A stretch of 64,000 nucleotides of DNA, taken from the NCBI GenBank assembly GCA_003225055.1, contig QIAU01000188.1, positions 1-64,000 on the forward strand, given 5' to 3'. The notes under the pieces were generated by a model. That model worked only from the letters and a program-made list of their open reading frames with translations, was not told the DNA's origin and did not search any database. Made by a program: the position numbers and the translations under genes. Shown piece by piece: positions 4,454-16,761 of the stretch; the first letter of the stretch is position 1, and every line of letters starts with the position of its first letter. The DNA comes from Acidobacteriota bacterium (GTDB lineage Bacteria; Acidobacteriota; Terriglobia; Terriglobales; Acidobacteriaceae).

Positions 4454-4607
4454 AAACGGATAAAAAGGATCTACTCCCGCTTCAGTGCTTTATCTTACTA
4501 CGCCAGACCACCTGGTCCTCCGCCGGAACCACGGCAGCCAACACTAGATTGCCACCGGAGCACGCGCTGCGAGGCTAGTCCCACCTATCCTCCAGAAACC
4601 CCCGCCG

Positions 4608-5041
4608 TTAAGCTGCGGGAGCTTCGATGATTTGGATTCCCAGGTTGGCGGCTTTCCACTTGAGGAAGTTGATTTCCCGCTGGCAGTGTTGTGCCTCGTA
4701 AAACTCCGCCCCTTTATCGACGAATTAACATTGCGGTACACTACAGCAGTCGTGCCAGTTTGGCCGCCATAGCCTTGGTCGCCACCGGAGCCCCAGCTTG
4801 GTTCTCGGTCGACGGAATTGCGCTCCCAGATAAGTTTTGCTCGCCCGTAAGGTGCAGGCCGCCATCTGGTACAGCCTTCCGAGAGCAGCCACTGCCGCAA
4901 GCTCAGCAGTTGTCGCGTCGTGGTCCCGAATGTCCGCATCTGCTTGCGGACTTTCCCGTTAGGCACAACCATCAGCAAGCAGGCTACGACGGTGGCCTGA
5001 TGCACATCCAATCCACAACCGCGTCCTACCAGGGTTTGCAT
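4608..5041 (-). pseudogene. IS110-family transposase remnant
   Basis: The N-terminal piece starts at ATG 5041 (MQTLVGRGCGLDVHQATVVACLL) and matches the start of IS110-type DEDD transposases, including the first catalytic Asp in GLDVH. After about 60 codons the frame breaks. A C-terminal piece in another frame (about 4608-4760, ending LKWKAANLGIQIIEAPAA then stop) looks like a transposase tail. Intact IS110 transposases are about 330-400 residues. Only about 145 codons remain, so the centre is deleted and the copy is dead. I see no clear element ends. Confidence 0.65.
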
Positions 5042-5491
5042 ACTCTCGCCTCCTTGCGGAAGCGATGCCTGCGCCGCAGGTCTGTTACAGACACTGCCAT
5101 GCGTCCTTCCCGTTTCCGGTAAGCGGCGCGGGTCAGTCTGGTCCGCAGGATCTGTGTCCTCACAGGGGGTCAACCTCCAAGCAATCGCTTTCCACGAAAT
5201 GCTTGTAGCACAAGACTGACCCGCTGCTCTGCCGCGCCAAATTTTCATGCTTGGTAGAGCGCCGTTAGGCGCATGAGGTCTGGTCCCGGAAAAAGGGATT
5301 CGGGAATCGTGCTGAACGTTTTCCTATAGGGCTTCAACGTCTGCTTCCTGCTCGACCACCTCATTCTGCGAGAATGTAAGTCTTGAATGGCAGTCCCAGA
5401 CCAGCGGTTCAAGCCTACTTTACTCTCGAAAACGATGGGAACATCCCCGTAAACAGGATAATCGGTGCGAACGTGCGCTAGGATGTGCTAT
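5042..5491. other. Intergenic stretch, no gene seen
   Basis: About 450 bp between the IS110 remnant and the small membrane protein gene. Open frames here are short and do not resemble proteins. The part next to the transposase remnant may be residual IS flank. No terminator with a T-run is seen downstream of the large operon. Confidence 0.4.
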
Positions 5492-5893
5492 CTATCCCTC
5501 TGTTTTTGCTTCATGCGCAGCCAGCGAGCGGGCAATGACCCCGAGCCCGCCAACCAGCAACACCAGCATCACAATGGTGTTGAACAAAGTGGTGGGTTGA
5601 AAGTAGATATGCATGTTAGCAATCACGCCAGCCAGGATGAAAAGCGCGCCGCCTGCGGTGAGCACCCAGCCGATTGTGCTTTTTCCATTCCAGAAAAGGA
5701 TCGCGACACCGAAAAGCATCGGAACGAGAGTGATTCCGAAGGTGTTCGCGCCGTAGAAGCTCCAGTATGAGCCGACCACGCTTACTTGATTCGAGAGCAG
5801 GTACCCTCCGACGCAAGCCATGACGAATCCAATGACAAACTCGCCGATTCCACCAGGCGTGCCGCCCACGTCACCGAAAGAACGGTTTTCCAT
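5492..5893 (-). CDS. Small membrane protein with four membrane segments
   Basis: A 133-residue protein starting MENRSFGDVGGTPGGIGEF, with four hydrophobic segments: GFVMACVGGYLLS, TFGITLVPMLFGVAILFW, GWVLTAGGALFILAGVI, and FNTIVMLVLLVGGLGVIA. The start at 5893 fits the glycine-rich conserved beginning. A longer frame would start at 5935. I recall a similar conserved acidobacterial family without known function. It lies 67 bp downstream of the AAA+ ATPase on the same strand and may be the last gene of that operon, but the gap leaves this open. Confidence 0.7.
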   Translation of the reverse strand: MENRSFGDVGGTPGGIGEFVIGFVMACVGGYLLSNQVSVVGSYWSFYGANTFGITLVPMLFGVAILFWNGKSTIGWVLTAGGALFILAGVIANMHIYFQPTTLFNTIVMLVLLVGGLGVIARSLAAHEAKTEG

Positions 5894-5960
5894 CGCATCA
5901 AACCCTCGTTGAATTCCGAACCCGTGTTTGTGCAAAATCTATCCCGCGTTAAATCAGTCG

Positions 5961-7718
5961 TCATCCCTCGGGACTAGTTCTGGAAAGTGCGAGAAGATCG
6001 TTTGCCCGCCGGATCAGTTCGCTTCGGTCAACATCGCGATACTGTTCAGGTAACAAGCTCTTACTGGTGCATTCCAGCACGGCTACGACATTCTGCAAGT
6101 CAATCTCGGTCGGATAGTACGGCGGTATGAAGTCTTCCAGAGCCGTTTTCAGGTCCTCGGTGTCCACAGCGGTCTTATTGCGCAAACTGCTCCGCATGTG
6201 GCTGCGGACCAGCACAGCTTCGATGTCGGCTCCGGAAAGGCTTCCGGAGTGATCAAGAAAAAACTTCTCGACATCGGTGGGAAAAGGAGGCATACCGATT
6301 TTTCTTTGCATGGCGCGCAAAAGCGCAAGGCGCTCCTCCGTTGTCTCCGGATAGAACAGAGCGATATGCTCCTCTGCTCTGCCCTGTCGCTTCAAGTCCA
6401 CGGGCAGCAGGTCAGGGCGGCAGGTGAGCAAAAACCAGATGACCTTCCCGCGGAGTTCCGTATTTCCCATGAACTGTGCGATTTGGGCAAAGACGCGATT
6501 ACTCACCCCACTGTCGCCGGAACGGGAGCGATCACCAAGTTGGGCATCGGCTTCGTCTACAATCACCGCGATCGGGCACATCGCTTTCAGCAGGCTCAAA
6601 ACTCGTTCTAAATTGCCTTCCGTAACCCCCTGCCACATACTGCGAAAATTCTTCAGTGTGACCGCAGGAATGCCGACCTCGCCCGCGAAGCAAGTCGTGA
6701 TAAACGTTTTCCCGGTCCCGACCGGGCCACAGATGACGTATCCCATGGGAAGAACGTCCGTCTTCCCCGCTTGTATCGCGGCGGCTGCCTCTTGTAGTTT
6801 GCGCTTTGCCTGATCGTTCCCGGCAACGAATGACAGATCGAATCGGCTCTGCACGAATTCGAGCAACCCGCCGGATTCGGCCTCGATGAGCTCTTTCTTG
6901 TGCTCGCTCAGGGTCTTCATGGTCAGAGGCCGGCGATTCTGCGTCGCATGTGAGATCACACTTTCGAGCTGAACTCGCTTTAAACCGGCACCCAGTTTCG
7001 CCAGTGATTCGTCACTGACTTCTGAACCTGGAGGGAGAGGCTGAATCCTCAGTTGCGCCCGGATAAAATCCAGCCGCTCGGCATAGTCTGGCAAAGGGAT
7101 GGCGATCGAAGACACCCCGGGATGTTGCACGATCCCTTGGTTCACCTCGATTTGGTTCTCAGAAACAAGGCATATCGTAACATCGGCATTCAGGAAAACC
7201 GGGCTGCGCGCCCACCGCTTAAGAATCACCAGCGAATTGCGGTCTTCCGCGGACATGTTGGCAATGTCCCCCGCGGGCACGATGGTTTCCGCAAAATCAA
7301 TGACCAGCCCTATCTTTCTGCCATCGGCAATGCGTAAACGCAAGTAGTTGTCCAGCAGATTCAGCACTGCATCCGGGCTGCGTGGAAGCCCACCTTGTGT
7401 GTAGTTCGTTCCATGAAAACTGTCGTAGCCTTCAAGAGCGCGGCGGAAGTCGGCCTGGCTGTCGGCGGAGCCAAAGCTTAGACCTCCTCGGTCGTAATGC
7501 AGAATTAAATCGCGCTGCCCGAAGAGGGCGTTTGAGAGAAACTCCTCAACCGGAACAAAATCAATGCCGTCAAGTCGGCGCAATGGTACAAGGTCGCGCA
7601 CATTTCCCGAGACAAGAAACAAGGCAAAAGACCGCGAGTAGTATTTTTCAGAAAGCTCGCGCGCCCACCCAGGGAGACCCTCCAAGTAGGTCTCGGTTTT
7701 TGGCGAACTCACCGGCAT
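5961..7718 (-). CDS. Two-module AAA+ ATPase
   Basis: A 585-residue ATPase. The C-terminal AAA+ module is canonical: Walker A GPVGTGKT (331-338), Walker B VIVDEAD (about 385-391), a sensor-1-like TCRPD segment, and a basic arginine-finger region DLKRQGR (about 442-448). The N-terminal module (about 25-215) keeps a Walker-B-like IGLVIDFAE but has SGNVRDLV where Walker A should be, so it is degenerate. This resembles Ycf46-like tandem AAA proteins. The start codon immediately follows the stop of the coiled-coil membrane gene, so the two are translationally linked. A remodelling role on the PspA/ABC/OmpA assembly is an inference from context. Confidence 0.85.
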   Translation of the reverse strand: MPVSSPKTETYLEGLPGWARELSEKYYSRSFALFLVSGNVRDLVPLRRLDGIDFVPVEEFLSNALFGQRDLILHYDRGGLSFGSADSQADFRRALEGYDSFHGTNYTQGGLPRSPDAVLNLLDNYLRLRIADGRKIGLVIDFAETIVPAGDIANMSAEDRNSLVILKRWARSPVFLNADVTICLVSENQIEVNQGIVQHPGVSSIAIPLPDYAERLDFIRAQLRIQPLPPGSEVSDESLAKLGAGLKRVQLESVISHATQNRRPLTMKTLSEHKKELIEAESGGLLEFVQSRFDLSFVAGNDQAKRKLQEAAAAIQAGKTDVLPMGYVICGPVGTGKTFITTCFAGEVGIPAVTLKNFRSMWQGVTEGNLERVLSLLKAMCPIAVIVDEADAQLGDRSRSGDSGVSNRVFAQIAQFMGNTELRGKVIWFLLTCRPDLLPVDLKRQGRAEEHIALFYPETTEERLALLRAMQRKIGMPPFPTDVEKFFLDHSGSLSGADIEAVLVRSHMRSSLRNKTAVDTEDLKTALEDFIPPYYPTEIDLQNVVAVLECTSKSLLPEQYRDVDRSELIRRANDLLALSRTSPEG

Positions 7719-8603
7719 TTAATTAGAAATCCTTACACGGCTCGGCCCGGAAGAAGTCGAAGTGCCATCGAGCGACATCAATCCATCGAGATCCGGCGAC
7801 AGATCGTTGAAAATAGCTTCAACTTGCTGCACCGTTTGCTCCGTTTGCTCGACATCGTGCACTAGGGTTTCCAGGCGCTCACTAACCTGCTGAGGATCGC
7901 GCATGGTAACCGATTGATCTCGTACCAGCATCAACACGTCTTCGACTGCGGCGCATTGAGCGTCCACGACTTTGCAGTTTTCACAAATCTTGTCGAATTT
8001 TTCCTGGCGTTTCGTCAGAATTTCTATGCGCTTCTTGTTGATTTCCTGCACCTTCGGCGGATCCGTGTTGAGCGTCCTCTCGAGGGCCACGATTTCGCGT
8101 TTGATCTCGTTCGCATCGGTGCTTTTCATGTATTGCTGCTGCTGAGCGGCCGCTACCAGCAATCGTGCGTAACCGCTCAGTAGCCCCTGTAAGCGCGAGT
8201 CAATCTGCTGAAGGAAGATCTGCGAAGTGGACGACAATTGGGTGAAGTTCGCTCGGATCGAGTTGCAAACCTGCGCCGAGTGGATATACCGGCTCTGCAT
8301 CTCAGCCGGCAGGCTCCTGAGCATTTCGCCTAGCCTTTGCTGCTTTTGCTTCTGCCGCTCGGCAAATTTCCAAGAGCGCACGAGCCGCTGAAAGCGATAG
8401 TTCTGCGGAACGATGGCGAGGTACATCAATTCCAGTCCGCCGGCCAGAATGAGAGGCAGAAGACTGCCGCTGATGAGCGCAAAGGCTCCGACGCCAACCA
8501 TTGCAATCCAGTTGTATTGCAGATTGAACGCCTCTTTGACAAAGCTGATGTTCTCTGGTTGTTCGGGCGGACTTGGTTGGTCCTGAAAGCCTGACGAAGC
8601 CAT
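7719..8603 (-). CDS. Membrane-hairpin, coiled-coil protein of unknown function
   Basis: A 294-residue protein with a soluble N-terminus (about 1-30), a hydrophobic hairpin (about 33-67: WIAMVGVGAFALISGSLLPL, then ILAGGLELMYLAIV), and a long charged helical part (about 70-270) with coiled-coil character. It contains a CENCKVVDAQC cysteine cluster near residue 210. The C-terminus is Ser/Thr-rich. I recognise no known family. It starts directly at the stop codon of the ABC ATPase (TAGATG) and ends directly before the AAA+ gene, which argues for a shared complex. A membrane adaptor for the AAA+ protein is a reasonable guess only. Confidence 0.8.
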   Translation of the reverse strand: MASSGFQDQPSPPEQPENISFVKEAFNLQYNWIAMVGVGAFALISGSLLPLILAGGLELMYLAIVPQNYRFQRLVRSWKFAERQKQKQQRLGEMLRSLPAEMQSRYIHSAQVCNSIRANFTQLSSTSQIFLQQIDSRLQGLLSGYARLLVAAAQQQQYMKSTDANEIKREIVALERTLNTDPPKVQEINKKRIEILTKRQEKFDKICENCKVVDAQCAAVEDVLMLVRDQSVTMRDPQQVSERLETLVHDVEQTEQTVQQVEAIFNDLSPDLDGLMSLDGTSTSSGPSRVRISN

Positions 8604-9431
8604 CTAGACACTCACTCGCACCTGGCCGTTGCCGGGAGCACGGCGCAGACATCCGAGAACGTAGTTTTGGAGCTCGTGAAATTCATTCCGCTGCTTCAGA
8701 TTGAGATCGCGGGGGCGGTCGAAGGGCACCTGAACATCTTCAACAATGGTTCCCGGATGTGCGCTCATGATGAAAACCCTGTCCGCCAGATAAATTGCCT
8801 CTTCTACATCATGAGTTACAAACAGGATTGTGCTGGCGGTTTCGTCCCACACCCGCAACAGCAGTTGTTGCATTTCGCTACGGGTTTGGGCATCGAGTGC
8901 ACCAAACGGCTCATCCATCAAAATGACGGACGGACGAAGCGCAAGCGTGCGGGCAATTGCGACCCGCTGCTGCATTCCGCCCGAAAGCGTCTCCGGATAG
9001 GAGTTTTCAAACCCGCCAAGGCCAACCGCTTGGATCAATTGCGCCACCGTCTCCTTGCGCTTTTCCGGCCCAACGCCATTAATCTTGAGCCCGTAACCTA
9101 TGTTATCAGCGACACTAAGCCAGGGAAACGAGGTGTATTTCTGAAACACCATACCCCGATCTTTGCCCGGACGATGCACGGGCTGATCATTGACCAGGAT
9201 TTCGCCGCTATCTGGGTGGTCCAGCCCGGCGATCAGGCGTAACAGTGTGGACTTGCCACACCCGGAGGGACCGAGAAGCACTCGAAACTCACCGATGTCG
9301 CGACCTTCCCTCGAATAAGCATCTTCAATTTCGAAATTAATATTCTCCAGCGCGTCAATTCTTTCGCCTTTGGGCGAAGCGAAGGAGCGATTGACATTCT
9401 TGACTGTGATTTTAGATTTCCTAGGCTCCAT
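8604..9431 (-). CDS. ABC transporter ATP-binding protein, NitT/TauT (SsuB/TauB) type
   Basis: A 275-residue nucleotide-binding subunit with Walker A GPSGCGKST (about 54-62), Q-loop VFQKYTSFPW, signature LSGGMQQR (about 149-156), Walker B VILMDEP with D-loop GALD, and H-loop VTHDVEE. The family drives uptake of nitrate, taurine, sulfonates or thiamine precursors. A loop EDAYSREGRDIGEF precedes Walker A and is longer than usual. It overlaps the end of the permease gene by 11 bp (ATG inside the permease end), so coupled translation is likely. Its partners here are the adjacent permease and an OmpA-fused binding protein, so a signalling rather than import role is possible. Confidence 0.92.
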   Translation of the reverse strand: MEPRKSKITVKNVNRSFASPKGERIDALENINFEIEDAYSREGRDIGEFRVLLGPSGCGKSTLLRLIAGLDHPDSGEILVNDQPVHRPGKDRGMVFQKYTSFPWLSVADNIGYGLKINGVGPEKRKETVAQLIQAVGLGGFENSYPETLSGGMQQRVAIARTLALRPSVILMDEPFGALDAQTRSEMQQLLLRVWDETASTILFVTHDVEEAIYLADRVFIMSAHPGTIVEDVQVPFDRPRDLNLKQRNEFHELQNYVLGCLRRAPGNGQVRVSV

Positions 9432-10287
9432 GCTTTGCCGCCTTCAGGTGTGCGTGGGCACTGGGGACCGCCGCACCTCCTCCGGAAAATGCAGAAGCAG
9501 CTTGCCGCCAAGGAAACAGGCGCCGCTCCAAGAACGTCAGCAGGAATCGGAACAAAAATGCCGCAATGCCAATGGCGATAATTCCCGCATACACCCGCTC
9601 GAAATCGAGCACCTTGCGCGCCGCTTCGACCATGTACCCCACGCCCTTGCGGGCATTTACCATCTCCGCCAGGATCACGTATGTCCAGCCAATGTCGTAG
9701 AGAATGCGGAAAGAGGAAAAGATCGCCGGAAACGACGCGCGGAACATCAGCCACAACGCGTGCCGCCGCTCAGCGCCTAGGGTGTATGCCGTTTCGAGCA
9801 GAGCATTGTCCACACGGTTCGCTTCCTCAACGACCACAGCCAGCAGATAGAAAAACATTCCAAACCACAGGAATGCTATCTTCATAGTCTCGTCCATGCC
9901 GAACAAGGCGATGAACGCCGGAAGGAAAGCGGTGAGCGGCATGGCGCGCATGGGTGCGGCAATCGGGTTGATCAACTCGAACAGCCAGCGAAAGCTGGCC
10001 ATGAGAATGCCAAGCGGAATCGCGATGACCGCACACCAAAAGAACGCTTGCGCAATGCGCCACCAGCTCTCCACCACGTTGCCGAGCAGATCGTACTCCG
10101 TCCATAATTTTCCAAACGCGCGAATGACCCCCAATGGCTTGGGTAGCGAGAAGGGCGGCAGGATTTCCCAGTGGGTCAGACCGATCCACACCAGGACGAC
10201 GATGGCCCAGCTCAGACATCCCAGGGCCAGTCGTAGGCGAGGCGAGATTTCTTTTCGAATACTGAACAGCTCACCGATATTGGCCAT
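9421..10287 (-). CDS. ABC transporter permease, NitT/TauT (SsuC/TauC) type
   Basis: A BPD_transp_1 family membrane subunit of about 288 residues with about six membrane segments. The coupling loop is seen at ETAYTLGAERRHALWLMFRASFPAIF (EAA-like). ATG 10287 is preferred and directly follows the stop of the binding-protein gene. An in-frame TTG at 10293 would overlap that stop. The tail after FPWRQAAS is Gly/Ala-rich and not conserved in character. It forms an importer-like unit with the ATPase at 8604-9431. Confidence 0.9.
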   Translation of the reverse strand: MANIGELFSIRKEISPRLRLALGCLSWAIVVLVWIGLTHWEILPPFSLPKPLGVIRAFGKLWTEYDLLGNVVESWWRIAQAFFWCAVIAIPLGILMASFRWLFELINPIAAPMRAMPLTAFLPAFIALFGMDETMKIAFLWFGMFFYLLAVVVEEANRVDNALLETAYTLGAERRHALWLMFRASFPAIFSSFRILYDIGWTYVILAEMVNARKGVGYMVEAARKVLDFERVYAGIIAIGIAAFLFRFLLTFLERRLFPWRQAASAFSGGGAAVPSAHAHLKAAKHGA

Positions 10288-10289
10288 CG

Positions 10290-11858
10290 TCAACTCGCCG
10301 GGTTCGCGTATACCTTGATGTCCGTTCGCCGGTTCTTCTCACGCCCTTCCGCGGTTCCATTTGTGGCAATGGGCTTGTCGGGACCGTTTCCCGCGGTGCG
10401 AAGCCGCACCGCCGGAAACCCATATTTCTCGATCAAGTAATCTCTCACCGCGTCGGCGCGCTGGTGAGAGAGTTGAATATTGTAAGCGCGCGAACCGGTG
10501 GAATCTGTATTGCCCTCAATATCGACGACGGTGTTTTCGTAGGCGCGCATAGTGCCTGCCAATTCATCCACCACCGCACGCGAATCGAGGCTCATGCGGG
10601 CCGAGTTGGGATCAAAGTAGATGGAGCGATGCTGGGTGGCCAAGGGGGTCGTCCCCTTGGCGGGCTCCCGATATTCTATGGGGGCTTCGCTCGAAGCCAT
10701 GGAGAAGCTGGCCGAGAGTTTCTCCATGTAACGCCGGTCCAGGCTCTCTTCCGGATTGCCTGTGTGCCTGATAATGCGCAATTCGCGGTACATGTCCTGC
10801 GCCATCTGAAAAATATTGGCGTAATCAGCGTTTGAACCTGCGGTTCCCATGAACGAGCGGTTGTCGGCATAGTCGGCCAGCTTGACTCCGCCAAGCATCG
10901 TCTTCGCCAAGTCTGACGGAATATTGAAATCTTTCACCGCTCCGATCAGGTTATATGCTCGGTCCGGCTGGCTCTTGATGAACTCCACCCCTTCCAGCCA
11001 GCCCTGAGCGAACTTGACCAACGTCTGTGGATGTCTTGCAGAAAAGCCGTCGCTCACAACCAGAATGTCCGCGATCAGGCGGTTCGCAATCCTTGTGTCG
11101 TAAATCTTCTTAGAGCCAGGCCTCTTGGCAACTGCGTCGCTCATGTCTGGATCCCATGCCACCGCGGCATCAACCTTCTGCTGGGCAAAAAGGGTTGCCG
11201 GCTCGATGCCATCTTTCGTGTGAACCGCTTTGTTGAATATTTCATTGCGCTGCTCGGTGCTCAGCCCTGAAGCCTTCAGCCCGTTCCATAGCAGGAAATG
11301 CGACGGAGTGTAAGGAGCAAATGCGACGGATTTTCCCGCCAGATCTTCGATACTATTGATTCCCTGCTTCCCTATCACTCCGTCGGCGCCACGCGACCAA
11401 TCGACCATTAAAAAAGCATGCGAGCCGAATCCCTTGTCTTTGAATTGCGCGTAATCTTTTGCGTAGACATCGGCGGTCGTCAGCATCACATCTACGTTAT
11501 TCGTTGCTAGCGCCGATGCACCTTCGGTCCAGTCATCAATAATCTTGAACGAAACTTTGAGGCCTTTCTTTCCATAAATAGAATCCGGTTGTGTGTCGAG
11601 ACCGCCGTTAGCGACCAAGCCCCCGACGCAGCCGACCCACACATTCACACGCAAGCGAACCTCGGCGTCGTCGCTCGTAGAGGAAGCGGGGATCAGCAGT
11701 GGCTTGGAGGAGTCCAACGTCTCGCCTCCGGACGAATTCTTCCCCCCACCAAGAACCCCGAGATTTATTACGCCGTACCGATTCAGGCTGTAGCCGACCA
11801 GCAGCACGCCAATGATGAAAATGAGGACCCATCCACCTCTTTCAATTTTCACTGCCAT
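10290..11858 (-). CDS. Membrane-anchored ABC substrate-binding protein fused to an OmpA domain
   Basis: A 522-residue two-domain protein. One N-terminal membrane segment (about 9-28) is not followed by a lipobox or clear cleavage site. Next comes an NMT1/SsuA-like periplasmic binding fold (about 65-335; LRVNVWVGCVGG, TTADVYA, AVAWDPDM). The C-terminus (about 412-518) is an OmpA-like peptidoglycan-binding domain: IYFDPNSARM, EGNTDSTGS, NIQLSHQRADAVRDYL and EGREKNRRTDI. A strong GGAGG site precedes ATG 11858. The protein would tether substrate sensing to both the inner membrane and the cell wall. It is followed without a gap by the permease. The fusion is unusual for a nutrient importer. Confidence 0.9.
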   Translation of the reverse strand: MAVKIERGGWVLIFIIGVLLVGYSLNRYGVINLGVLGGGKNSSGGETLDSSKPLLIPASSTSDDAEVRLRVNVWVGCVGGLVANGGLDTQPDSIYGKKGLKVSFKIIDDWTEGASALATNNVDVMLTTADVYAKDYAQFKDKGFGSHAFLMVDWSRGADGVIGKQGINSIEDLAGKSVAFAPYTPSHFLLWNGLKASGLSTEQRNEIFNKAVHTKDGIEPATLFAQQKVDAAVAWDPDMSDAVAKRPGSKKIYDTRIANRLIADILVVSDGFSARHPQTLVKFAQGWLEGVEFIKSQPDRAYNLIGAVKDFNIPSDLAKTMLGGVKLADYADNRSFMGTAGSNADYANIFQMAQDMYRELRIIRHTGNPEESLDRRYMEKLSASFSMASSEAPIEYREPAKGTTPLATQHRSIYFDPNSARMSLDSRAVVDELAGTMRAYENTVVDIEGNTDSTGSRAYNIQLSHQRADAVRDYLIEKYGFPAVRLRTAGNGPDKPIATNGTAEGREKNRRTDIKVYANPAS

Positions 11859-11982
11859 GGTGTTTCCTCCCTCACCTGCTTATCTTCCCCCTGGTCTTCC
11901 CATTCGGGCTTCGGTCATGATTTCGCAGGTCCGGTTCATTAGACAGGCTCAGTCAGAAGGACCGCAAAACCGCAGCACTCCC

Positions 11983-12720
11983 CTAAGAAGTGCGCTGCGG
12001 CTCTTTCGCGGCGATGGTTTTTTCTGCCGCAGAGGACGCTGCGGATGCCTGCGGCGGCGCGAGTCCCATCTCAATCTTGAACTGCTTCACCAGTTCGCTC
12101 GCCTGCAGCTTCTGCGCCTCGTCCTCGATCTTGATCTTCTGCTGATCTACGTTGCTCATGGCCATATCCATCCGGGCTTCGTTGACCGCAGTCATCTCTT
12201 CGATCTTGCGCACCATCTCGTCGTGCGTCTCGCTGATACCGGCAACCTCGAACTGCTCCATCGCATCCGCCACCTTCTTTTGCCACTGGGCGCGGCGGTA
12301 GTCGGCGATGGCGTTTAGCGCTTCCTGAGTCTTACGCTCTTTTTCGCGCATGAAGGCTTGTTTTACTGTCATGGCCTTCTCGAACGCCGCGCGAGCCGTG
12401 GTGAGCTGGCCTTGGGTTCTGGCCAAAGCGCCTTTCACCTGCTCCAGTTGGGCGGCAAAGCTGCCGGCAAGATCGTCCCGGTTCGCCTGAATTGCGGCTT
12501 TCACCTTTGCGGTCAGGTTCGCCATATCATCTTTGTATTTCGCTTCTTCCTTCTCCAGCAGTGTCACATTCGCCTTAACCATGGCGATGCTCTCGTTCAT
12601 CCGAGGCACCTGGTCGTTCATATCACGAATATTCTGCTGCAAGATCAGTTCCGGGTCTTCCGCCACGGAGATGAAGAAGCCGACGAACGACCGTATCATT
12701 CGGGTGAACCGTTGCCACAT
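11983..12720 (-). CDS. pspA: PspA/IM30 family protein
   Basis: A 245-residue, almost wholly helical protein. The start (MWQRFTRMIRSFVGFFISVAED) is the PspA-type amphipathic helix, followed by the PELILQQNIRDM segment and long coiled coils to about residue 215. An Ala/Ser-rich tail follows. The family (PspA, Vipp1/IM30) forms ESCRT-III-like polymers that protect or remodel the inner membrane. An AGGAGG site lies 5 nt before the ATG. It is the second gene of the minus-strand operon, 9 bp after the conserved KWYNYF protein and 124 bp before the OmpA-fused binding protein. The tail differs from classical PspA. Confidence 0.92.
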   Translation of the reverse strand: MWQRFTRMIRSFVGFFISVAEDPELILQQNIRDMNDQVPRMNESIAMVKANVTLLEKEEAKYKDDMANLTAKVKAAIQANRDDLAGSFAAQLEQVKGALARTQGQLTTARAAFEKAMTVKQAFMREKERKTQEALNAIADYRRAQWQKKVADAMEQFEVAGISETHDEMVRKIEEMTAVNEARMDMAMSNVDQQKIKIEDEAQKLQASELVKQFKIEMGLAPPQASAASSAAEKTIAAKEPQRTS

Positions 12721-12729
12721 AAACTCCTC

Positions 12730-13419
12730 CTATTCGGACCGCCGCGCTGTTTTGGATACAGGCGGCTGGGTTTGAGCCGGACCCGTCGTAATCGGGTTTT
12801 CGCTTACGAAATATCCGACGGCGTCGGCAATCTTCTTTTCCTCTTGCTGTTTCTTCAACCGCCAGCTGGCCAAGCGCTCTTTCTCGCGGGCAACCTCGTC
12901 ATTATTGGCTTGGATTTTAGCGCGCTGCTCAGTCAGATATTTGTCGATCTGCGCCTGAATTTCGCTGTTTTCCTTGCCTTTCCTCGCTTCCAGTTCCTCA
13001 ACCGCGCGTTGCTGCACGCGCTCATACGTGTCGAGAGCCCGATCACGCCGCACGGCATCCTGGATGACGTCCTTGATCTCGGCCCCCGCGGCATCCAGCG
13101 CAACCAGAACAGAAGACTTCTTGACGTCGGACGGAAGATTGCGAAGATGCTCGCTTTCAAGCATGTGCGCCACCTTCAAAATCGAATAGCCCTGCGGCGC
13201 CGGCGGGATTTCGGCGGCTTTATAGATTTCATCAAAACAGGTGGGATCAGAAACCGGAGTGGTGAATTTGGGCTCCGCGGCTACACTTGACGCTATCTCT
13301 GCCACGCTCTGCGCAGCACTCTTCGAGACGGTTGCGGTTGTGGTCGGAGTACGTGCGCTTTGATCAGCACCGTCAGCCTCGTCCACCGAAACGAAATAGT
13401 TGTACCACTTCTTTGTCAT
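12730..13419 (-). CDS. Conserved protein of unknown function, first gene of the PspA operon
   Basis: A 229-residue protein beginning MTKKWYNYFVSVDEADGADQ. The start at 13419 is fixed by a GGAGG site 6-7 nt upstream. Residues 1-60 have the WYNYFVSVD block and a Thr/Ser/Ala-rich linker. Residues 70-150 contain a compact region (FDEIYKAAEIPPAPQGY, HMLESEHLRNLP, SSVLVALDAAG), then helical coiled coil to about 210. No signal peptide or membrane segment. I recall the same opening in homologous operons of Alphaproteobacteria but know no assigned function. As lead gene next to PspA it is probably a cytoplasmic partner or regulator of PspA. Confidence 0.82.
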   Translation of the reverse strand: MTKKWYNYFVSVDEADGADQSARTPTTTATVSKSAAQSVAEIASSVAAEPKFTTPVSDPTCFDEIYKAAEIPPAPQGYSILKVAHMLESEHLRNLPSDVKKSSVLVALDAAGAEIKDVIQDAVRRDRALDTYERVQQRAVEELEARKGKENSEIQAQIDKYLTEQRAKIQANNDEVAREKERLASWRLKKQQEEKKIADAVGYFVSENPITTGPAQTQPPVSKTARRSE

Positions 13420-13479
13420 CTGGCCTCCAGCGCGACGAGGATCAATGGTGGTTCGTCGGAAGAAACACCGACACTGAAA

Positions 13480-13506
13480 ACTATAGCCTGGCGGCAGTAT
13501 AGTCAA
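13480..13506 (-). promoter_or_regulatory. Candidate sigma-70 promoter and operator of the PspA operon
   Basis: On the minus strand, TTGACT (13506-13501) and TATAGT (13485-13480) are separated by 15 bp, about 60 nt upstream of the operon start codon. The same bases form a perfect 6-bp inverted repeat, ACTATA (13480-13485) and TATAGT (13498-13503), with 12 bp between. A dimeric regulator could bind there and block the promoter. The spacing is slightly short for sigma-70, so this is a candidate only. Confidence 0.4.
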
Positions 13507-13645
13507 TTGTTTTCATTGGTTTCCGCGCACTTCCTACACCTCGCCTAGAATCCAGGCGTGTGCGTGAGACGGCTCGTCGCGAAGAATATATGGGAAGCGA
13601 TGAGCCCTTGCAATTCAGCTACAATGAGCATCTTCATTGTTCAAG

Positions 13646-14173
13646 ATGAACGACTCGTTGAACAACCCTCAGAATCGGGGGATTCTCGTGCCTCAAGATG
13701 ACCTAGCGTCAATCCTAAGCCGGGTCGTAGAAACCAAGGCGGAATATGACATCCGCCTACTGGCGCAACAATTAGGGACGAATTACCGCTCGCTGATGTA
13801 CTGGCTCAGGGGAGATCGTGCTCTGCCCGCGCACTTGCTGCCCCGCCTGTGTACGCTGCTTGGAAACTACGAAGGGCTCGATTTTTTGGAAAGCCAGGCA
13901 GGAAGGGTTGCGTTCAAAATCCCGGATCCGCGTGCCCCTCTGGAACAAGAGTTGGTAGCCGTTTCCAACCTTATCCGGGAGGTTGGTGAGGCCCTGGAAA
14001 GCGTTGCCGAAACCCTAGCTGACGGTGTTGTGGAGGAAACTGAACTGAGGATCACAATTCCCAAGATTGACGCTGTGATCCAGGAATGCGCTTCGCTCAA
14101 ATATCTCCTGGAAGACCTGTCGAAAAGAAAGAAGAAAAGGAGAACTGAAGCCGAAAGGTCCGGTTCGCGCTGA
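13646..14173 (+). CDS. Phage CII-like helix-turn-helix regulator
   Basis: A 175-residue protein (start ATG 13646; an in-frame TTG at 13637 is possible). The N-terminal part holds an HTH-like segment (IRLLAQQLGTNYRSLMYWLRGDRALPAHLLPRL) similar to the phage regulatory CII/CP76 family. The rest is helical, with a basic KKRKK-like end. It is divergent from the PspA operon, with about 225 bp between the start codons. An inverted repeat CATCTT/AAGATG (13629-13634 and 13643-13648) overlaps the start codon and could serve autoregulation. No ribosome site is obvious. Control of the PspA operon is an inference from its position. Confidence 0.7.
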   Translation: MNDSLNNPQNRGILVPQDDLASILSRVVETKAEYDIRLLAQQLGTNYRSLMYWLRGDRALPAHLLPRLCTLLGNYEGLDFLESQAGRVAFKIPDPRAPLEQELVAVSNLIREVGEALESVAETLADGVVEETELRITIPKIDAVIQECASLKYLLEDLSKRKKKRRTEAERSGSR

Positions 14174-15963: not shown

Positions 15964-16298
15964 GTGGTCGGTCAAACCGTCTCGCATTATCGCATTCTGC
16001 GCAAGCTCGGCGGTGGCGGGATGGGGGTGGTTTACGAGGCTGAAGACGTCAATCTGGGCCGTCATGTGGCCCTAAAGTTTCTGCCCGAGGAGTTGTCCAA
16101 AGATCCGCAAGCCCTCGATCGCTTTCGACGCGAGGCCCGCGCAGCTTCGGCCCTCAATCATCCTTGTATCTGCACGATCTTCGAGATTTGCGAGGACCAG
16201 AACGAAGTCTTCCTCGTAATGGAGTACCTCGATGGCGTGACTTTGAAACATCTGGTTGGTTTCCGACCACTGGAGCTCGAGAGCCTCCTTGACCTGGC
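15964..16298 (+). pseudogene. Ser/Thr protein kinase, 5' fragment cut by an IS element
   Basis: About 111 codons of a Hanks-type kinase: [39 protein letters not shown] has the glycine-rich loop and the VALK lysine, and a hinge region EYLDGVTL follows. After [10 protein letters not shown] (near 16298) the sequence becomes the antisense of a TnpB gene. The catalytic HRD and DFG motifs and the membrane/sensor part are lost. The start is GTG 15964. The 3' part of the kinase is not found after the IS element, so a deletion accompanied or followed the insertion. Confidence 0.8.
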
Positions 16299-16761
16299 CG
16301 TTTTCATTCTTGAGAGTGAGCGTTTTAACTTCGCCTTGGAGCGAACGATGCAACTTGATTTTAACGTTGCCAATTTTGGACAACGATAGCTGTCCGCCGT
16401 TCACTCGGAATCCTGCCTGGGGATACGTGAACGAGTCAAACCAGCCTTTGCCCTTGAAGCGCGGAAATCCCCGGCCGCGCCGAAAGAATGCCTGGTACGT
16501 CTTATCTACACGGTGCAGCACATCTTGCAGCACCTGCGAATACACCTTGCCCAGCGCAGGGTCGGCTGCCTTGCAGGCGGGCAACTGTGCCGATTGCATG
16601 GAGAAAGATACGCAGGTGCGGCACAACTTCCAAGCCTCGCGCCGCTCTTTGAGCGCATCGTTGTACAACTGGCGGCACACTTCCAGCGTCGAAAACAGGA
16701 CTTCCCGCTGTTTGCGGTTTGGCCACAGCCGATATTTATACGTTCTTCTGACTTTCGACAT
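16299..16761 (-). pseudogene. tnpB: TnpB of an IS200/IS605 element, 3'-truncated
   Basis: About 154 N-terminal codons of TnpB: MSKVRRTYKYRLWPNRKQREVLF, then LYNDALKERREAWKL, AFFRRGRGFPRFKGK and [25 protein letters not shown]. This is the OrfB_IS605 N-terminal part. The RuvC-like nuclease half and zinc ribbon are missing; the sequence turns into kinase DNA at about 16299. Intact TnpB is about 370-420 residues. The element right end, where the guide RNA is normally encoded, is therefore also gone. It overlaps the end of tnpA by 26 bp, as is usual for this family. Confidence 0.85.

Follow-up and report, generated by a model that had tools for sequence, protein, structure and literature searches.

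The window, as we term the whole 64,000-nucleotide stretch of contig QIAU01000188.1 that was analyzed, carries a seven-gene operon on its minus strand in the order X258, PspA/IM30, SBP-OmpA, permease, ATPase, CC294, and AAA+. The first gene, X258 (12730..13506, 258 aa), matches no known Pfam or NCBIfam family above cutoff and may encode a PspA partner. It is followed by a PspA/IM30 family protein (11983..12720, 245 aa; PF04012, E = 8e-20, 71.8 bits) and, after a 124-base gap, by the SBP-OmpA protein (10290-11858, 522 aa), in which a substrate-binding protein (SBP) is joined to an OmpA domain; from SBP-OmpA through AAA+, the genes overlap or abut. The permease (9421..10293, 290 aa; PF00528, E = 6.4e-18) is TauC/SaoP-like, with an EAA-like motif, and scores 107 bits with the TauC model, under the cutoff of 342. 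The ABC ATPase (8604..9431, 275 aa; PF00005, E = 1.8e-32) is SaoA/TauB-like. Its Walker A, signature, Walker B, and H-loop motifs are intact and, together with the EAA-like loop and the SBP, are the features expected of a functional ABC importer. The AAA+ ATPase (5961..7718, 585 aa; PF00004, E = 2.7e-18) is the last gene, and among homologs of at least 520 aa, a Walker A motif is present in the C-terminal half in 40/40 and in the N-terminal half in 0/40.

The product of the sixth gene, CC294 (7719..8603, 294 aa), has hydrophobic stretches near the N terminus, as seen by eye, followed by long helices in its structural model (pLDDT of 72, lower in the N-terminal part). No Pfam family was found for CC294, and a fold search of the PDB with this model returned no match at an E value of 0.001 or better. 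Neither that search nor profile comparison supported CC294 as a relative of PspA or Snf7, although, given the modest confidence of the model, it may still be one. A 147-aa protein encoded downstream of the operon (5492..5935, minus strand) is loosely attached: it is found in L020, L021, and L023 and lies on the opposite strand in L026. On the other side, a CII/YmfL-like gene (13637-14173, plus strand; PF06892, E = 9.4e-10) stands divergent beside X258, is kept there in 14 of the closest loci (L021-L023, L025-L034, and L071), and is a candidate operon regulator. Transposase-like pieces of TnpB type and IS110 type, noted by eye, flank the region (16072-16761 and 4544-5248, both minus strand). 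Promoter and terminator scans gave about the same yield as shuffled sequences.

The SBP-OmpA gene is an intact open reading frame with an ATG start. Its product begins with an N-terminal membrane anchor (residues 7-27, 11778..11840), delimited by a model helix and by conservation, and continues with a flexible leash (residues 31-60, 11679..11768), which has low pLDDT and a length that varies among relatives. A TauA/SsuA-type substrate-binding domain (residues 66-380, 10719..11663) follows, assigned from Pfam NMT1, the model, and the match to TauA, and the protein ends in an OmpA-like peptidoglycan-binding domain (residues 407-518, 10305..10640), which includes D452 and R467. The anchor, the TauA/SsuA-like domain, and the OmpA domain had all been named in an earlier sequence-only reading of this DNA, and the open reading frame, Pfam, and the AlphaFold2 model bear them out. 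PF00691 (OmpA) matched residues 414-510 (E = 1.2e-20, 74.1 bits against a cutoff of 27.2), and NMT1 matched residues 164-301 (E = 2.6e-7, 31.2 bits against a cutoff of 20.5). The AlphaFold2 model of the full protein (mean pLDDT of 84.5, pTM of 0.83) contains a two-lobed binding domain at approximately residues 66 to 380, as well as the OmpA fold, the absence of which would have spoken against the sequence-only reading. Among solved structures, the binding domain is closest to Escherichia coli TauA (Z of 29.0 over 286/297 residues, rmsd of 3.0, 17% identity), with SsuA second (Z of 27.2), and the C-terminal domain matches solved OmpA domains such as 5wtp (45% identity). In fold, the SBP-OmpA protein is an NMT1/TauA-type SBP, and it passes the Pfam cutoff.

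A homology search returned 61 loci, 60 of which contain the SBP-OmpA protein (L020-L079, here termed the close loci), although a contig end truncates some of them (L069, L075, and L076); the remaining locus, L080, matches the OmpA part only and was dropped ahead of all counts. The conservation alignment comprises 51 rows, one for the window and 50 drawn from the 60 close loci, with L026, L029, L037, L051, L060, L066, L069, L071, L075, and L076 left out as near-duplicate, cut, or split. The Pfam matches, the homologous loci, and the model together rule out chance or misannotation as the source of the open reading frame. The first OmpA motif, FDPNSA, had been described as slightly unusual, a description that does not hold: the relatives read FDPNSA, FEPNSA, FETNSA, FDTGSA, and similar.

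Inspection of the anchor by eye revealed neither a lipobox Cys nor an AxA cleavage site. Positions M1, I5, E6, G8, G9, W10, I13, F14, G17, L20, Y23, L25, and Y28 are conserved in at least 90% of the 51 rows, and, judged by its sequence, the anchor looks uncleaved. It is very improbable, in our assessment, that the helix serves as a signal peptide and is cleaved off, leaving a mature wall-bound SBP free of the membrane; the length and hydrophobicity of the helix would also suit a signal peptide, but besides the missing AxA site, both sides of the helix are nearly invariant, unlike those of the free paralogs in L036 and L052.

The two connections within the protein differ in how much they vary. 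From the membrane helix to SBP residue 70, the distance is approximately 38 to 50 residues in the close relatives, 50 to 70 in the distant ones, and 27 in the orphan copy of L073 (the helix ends, and hence these lengths, derive from a hydrophobicity window), and the pLDDT block means for residues 31-60 are 45 to 66. From the SBP to the OmpA domain, the distance is 28 to 31 residues in the close relatives and 30 to 35 in the distant ones, and the junction is modeled at a pLDDT of 88 to 89. These values suggest that the SBP and OmpA domains form a fairly rigid unit, joined to the membrane by a leash of variable length. The proposal that the protein reads the distance between membrane and wall is weakened in its strict form, that of a ruler, because the leash length varies while the SBP-OmpA junction hardly does. 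The broader idea of a mainly mechanical strut or membrane-wall distance gauge, with ligand binding secondary, draws on the near-constant, well-modeled junction, on the two-ended architecture like that of MotB/PomB (a profile match), and on a relative with no transporter found (L128, described below). A leash of 27 to 70 residues among relatives counts against it, as does the pocket, whose mapped positions rank with the most strongly conserved in the SBP, and we regard it as quite improbable.

At the other end of the protein, Asp452 and Arg467 are invariant in 51/51 close rows and 11/11 distant relatives, a distant set that includes near-duplicates (L015-L017, one genus) and excludes L019, whose score was just under the filter. 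The two residues are 15 apart, as are those of the DAP-binding pair in Omp38. The OmpA domain keeps both of its predicted peptidoglycan-contact residues. As an architecture, the two-ended tether of the sequence-only reading has good support from both sequence and model; its attachment to the cell wall is deduced from these residues. In a distant paralog (L168, 6245-7825), the OmpA Asp is lost, as seen by eye.

The pocket of the SBP domain includes W74, D109, T128, D130, D153-W154, D159, P185, W235, and D264. According to PMC6906117, TauA holds the sulfonate of its ligand through the Gln30 side chain and through main-chain contacts from Gly61, Gly79, and Thr132, and it holds the amine through Glu106, Thr132, and Asp205. 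In the alignments, the residues of the window protein at TauA sites are W110 (Gly61), T128 (Gly79), P185 (Thr132), D159 (Glu106), W235 (Trp176), and D264 (Asp205). The placement of W74 at Gln30 comes from the joint alignment alone and is the least certain of the mapped positions, and the T128 match is without support from the single-sequence alignment, which places a gap near Gly79. TauA Asn55, Asp84, and Ser109 were left unmapped, as the fetched E. coli sequence has different residues there; Ser32 aligns to G76 and did not enter the pocket count. W74, T128, D159, P185, W235, and D264 are invariant in the 51 close rows and kept in at least 10/11 distant relatives, whereas W110 is conserved in the close set only. 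Eight of the nine mapped TauA positions fall among the 46/330 SBP positions common to at least 10/11 distant relatives. A pocket too degraded to hold a ligand, which the sequence-only reading had named as a possible refutation, is rejected on this conservation in close and distant relatives, since the positions mapped as ligand contacts are some of the best conserved in the SBP.

The amine-binding acids of TauA (Glu106 and Asp205) are conserved in kind as D159 and D264 in 51/51 close rows and 11/11 distant relatives, while the sulfonate-binding residues are not: W74, W110, T128, and P185 stand in their places. Main-chain contacts would still be possible from W110 and T128, because TauA Gly61 and Gly79 act through their main-chain NH groups; judged by sequence, clear evidence against a sulfonate comes only from Trp74 and from Pro185, which lacks an NH. 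We infer that the sulfonate site is altered and the amine site kept. Because the sulfonate residues of TauA are replaced while the amine-binding acids and the Trp remain, the predicted ligand is of the amine/amidine type, an assignment of class that rests on residue mapping at approximately 17 to 20% identity to TauA. A sulfonate, as the family name suggests, is disfavored by the pocket alignments. The NCBIfam model SsuA_fam scored the SBP-OmpA protein at 78.2 bits (cutoff, 163.5), taurine_ABC_bnd at 31.9 bits (cutoff, 304.25), and the "urea" ABC model TIGR03427 at 63.9 bits (cutoff, 333.9), all below threshold. The SBP of the host genome that passes the SsuA_fam cutoff (L171) is without the pocket signature.

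Free SBPs with a similar pocket were found on plasmids. When the free SBP of L132, rather than the SBP-OmpA protein of the window, served as the query, 153 records matched, and five of the best 20 of these (H2, H5, H6, H8, and H11) were inspected. Position 74 is Trp in 5/5 of them, with Gln in none, position 264 is Asp in 5/5, position 159 is acidic in 5/5, position 128 is Thr in 4/5, and position 235 is Trp in 4/5. H2 adjoins an agmatinase and an aminotransferase. H8, named an aliphatic sulfonate SBP by NCBI, adjoins a nucleoside deaminase and an isochorismatase-family hydrolase. The neighbors of H5, H6, and H11 are ambiguous, with no clear pointer to amines. The five gene tables, though incomplete, name no product as taurine dioxygenase or alkanesulfonate monooxygenase.

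Conservation of the gene neighborhood was tallied across the close loci with enough flank, a gene being counted wherever in the locus it stood and regardless of order. On this basis, X258 is present in 48/50 loci, PspA in 53/55, the permease in 53/54, the ATPase in 50/50, CC294 in 44/47, and AAA+ in 35/38; the three loci without AAA+ (L065, L067, and L078) have it elsewhere in the same genome. With the permease and ATPase this constant, the suggestion that the protein positions an ABC transporter at the wall is plausible. In L077, the genes form two convergent operons, SBP-OmpA/permease/ATPase and X258/PspA/CC294/AAA+, which are still adjacent. Across 199 genomes of the phylum Acidobacteriota, the SBP-OmpA protein was found in 14 (E of 1e-30) and AAA+ in 29, with AAA+ in 13/14 genomes that have SBP-OmpA versus 16/185 that do not (Fisher P of ∼1e-11, a value that ignores shared ancestry and includes the window's own genome). 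Eleven of the 13 pairs lie on one contig, 1.1 to 3.6 kb apart; in G005 and G066, transporter and AAA+ are on separate contigs. No AAA+ match was found in G030, which carries SBP-OmpA. Of the 16 genomes that have AAA+ but no strong match to SBP-OmpA, three (G012, G016, and G021) carry diverged SBP-OmpA genes. Both SBP-OmpA and AAA+ are missing from 19/19 same-family genomes among those listed.

The neighborhood also extends to ten stretches with distant SBP-OmpA genes (L125-L134), whose SBPs are 26 to 37% identical to that of the window in nine cases and 62 to 67% in L129. CC294 is present in 10/10, permease and ATPase in 9/10, AAA+ in 8/10 (absent from L132 and L133), and PspA in 8/10, with four of the eight PspA matches weak (16 to 30 bits). 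Stretches L116, L117, and L120 have PspA, CC294, and AAA+ without the transporter, whereas AAA+ is present in L118, L119, L121-L124, and L135 with PspA, CC294, and SBP-OmpA all absent. Because PspA/CC294/AAA+ stretches occur without the transporter, PspA/CC/AAA+ looks like the core and the transporter like an accessory, and for the same reason the link of the transporter to PspA/AAA+ could be loose. One of the ten distant stretches, L128 (4458-9240, genome G116), encodes SBP-OmpA and PspA, with CC and AAA+ upstream, and is without the permease or ABC ATPase; the genes that take the place of the transporter were recognized by eye as an FAD oxidoreductase gene and a VWA-like gene. A permease search of genome G116 returned nothing at an E value of 1e-5, which is weak evidence. 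In the L128 protein, W74 is replaced by Tyr and P185 by Glu, so this copy may bind a different ligand.

In other relatives, a second SBP gene without an OmpA domain stands beside the tethered one: L036, L037, and L052 among the close loci and L132 and L170 among the distant ones. The free SBPs of L036 and L052 have a leader that looks cleavable by eye and the same key pocket residues as the window protein, those of L132 and L170 have Val at position 185 and Thr at position 110 with the other mapped positions as in the window, and that of L037 is broken between two reading frames. L168 (3206-12548) and L169 (3529-12402) have three SBP-like genes ahead of the permease, ATPase, and AAA+; at least one has an OmpA domain, and the middle one of L168 is that without the OmpA Asp. 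Separately, L073 (8815-10506) is an orphan SBP-OmpA paralog, 61% identical, with the operon genes absent from its locus, a Cys-rich zinc-ribbon-like N terminus, and a RelA/SpoT-like neighbor (both noted by eye); its MAG also supplied L070, which has the usual neighbors.

The extra untethered SBPs, found in five loci beside the same transporter genes, would be expected if ligand delivery is what counts, that is, if the system is an ordinary ABC importer that keeps its SBP at the wall only for proximity to the permease and whose PspA/AAA+ neighbors are coregulated without receiving its signal. Complete importer genes with intact motifs and a conserved pocket agree with this explanation. On the other hand, the neighborhood holds over deep divergence, AAA+ accompanies SBP-OmpA in nearly all genomes that have it, and in L128, SBP-OmpA occurs with PspA/AAA+ where no permease was found. 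On balance, an ordinary importer seems somewhat unlikely. The variants, both those with an extra untethered SBP and the transporter-less L128, favor a wall-anchored, ligand-reading input to PspA/AAA+.

We give about an even chance to the reading that SBP-OmpA serves a PspA/AAA+ membrane-maintenance system as its periplasmic arm, one that reads a ligand and grips the wall. Under this model, the N-terminal helix would stay in the inner membrane and the OmpA domain would clasp meso-DAP peptidoglycan; the leashed SBP domain, near the wall, would capture a small amine- or amidine-bearing solute rather than a sulfonate. The SBP domain would also dock on the permease dimer, and the ABC unit would import the solute, take the docking as a signal, or both. 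In the cytoplasm, its activity would be coupled to PspA assembly, with CC294, and to the remodeling of PspA by the AAA+ ATPase. If the protein lost its hold on the wall or its ligand, the transporter would change state, and membrane repair would be adjusted accordingly. A bolder version, in which a wall-clasping, ligand-gated ABC transporter controls an ESCRT-like PspA and AAA+ machine, we consider tentative and, as a whole, unlikely. There, SBP-OmpA would sense peptidoglycan contact together with an amine/amidine solute, which might be a metabolite derived from the wall or from stress, and would signal PspA assembly via the transporter or, where the transporter is missing, directly. For envelope sensing by PspA-type polymers outside the proteobacteria, the operon offers a candidate sensor, a matching transporter, and an AAA+ remodeler, the sensor likely combining physical wall contact with a specific ligand pocket. 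The pocket analysis turns a vague link to solute transport into a testable ligand class, and sensing may prove separable from transport in the variants that have an extra free SBP or no transporter found.

The SBP-OmpA/PspA/AAA+ system is real and of a kind already predicted. PMC11237479 (Ravi et al. 2024) describes a neighborhood of PspA, a two-domain AAA+, ABC, and PBPB-OmpA (example, OGG56892.1) and proposes that the PBPB-OmpA protein binds wall and solute, so the idea of the sequence-only reading is already in print as a prediction. The window matches those operons in both content and proposed function, with PspA, AAA+, ABC ATPase, permease, and SBP-OmpA all inside one operon (5961-12720). 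The N-terminal AAA+ copy described there as inactive may correspond to the half that is without Walker A here (40/40). The Snf7 homolog with a transmembrane segment in the same text could not be matched to CC294, which also gave no PspA-profile match. No other paper or experiment on this operon was found in the open-license literature. The PspA/AAA+ operon, its printed precedent, and the relatives with no transporter found or with an untethered SBP lie outside the sequence-only reading; new in the present analysis are the pocket signature with its predicted ligand class, the tether lengths, the transporter-less and double-SBP variants, the distribution in Acidobacteriota, and the X258 gene.

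Compared with better-known systems, the operon resembles TauABC/SsuABC in its SBP fold, TauC-like permease, and SaoA/TauB-like ATPase and differs from them in the replacement of TauA Gln30, Gly79, and Thr132, the added membrane anchor and OmpA domain, and the PspA/AAA+ neighbors. MotB/PomB and TssL have an N-terminal membrane helix and a periplasmic part and, according to profile matches, share the C-terminal OmpA domain; unlike them, the SBP-OmpA protein holds a whole SBP between anchor and OmpA domain, and its operon is without flagellar or secretion genes in Pfam. In NrtC/CmpC, an NMT1-type SBP domain, represented among the structural matches by 8wm7 and 9uak, has a regulatory role and is fused to the ATPase.
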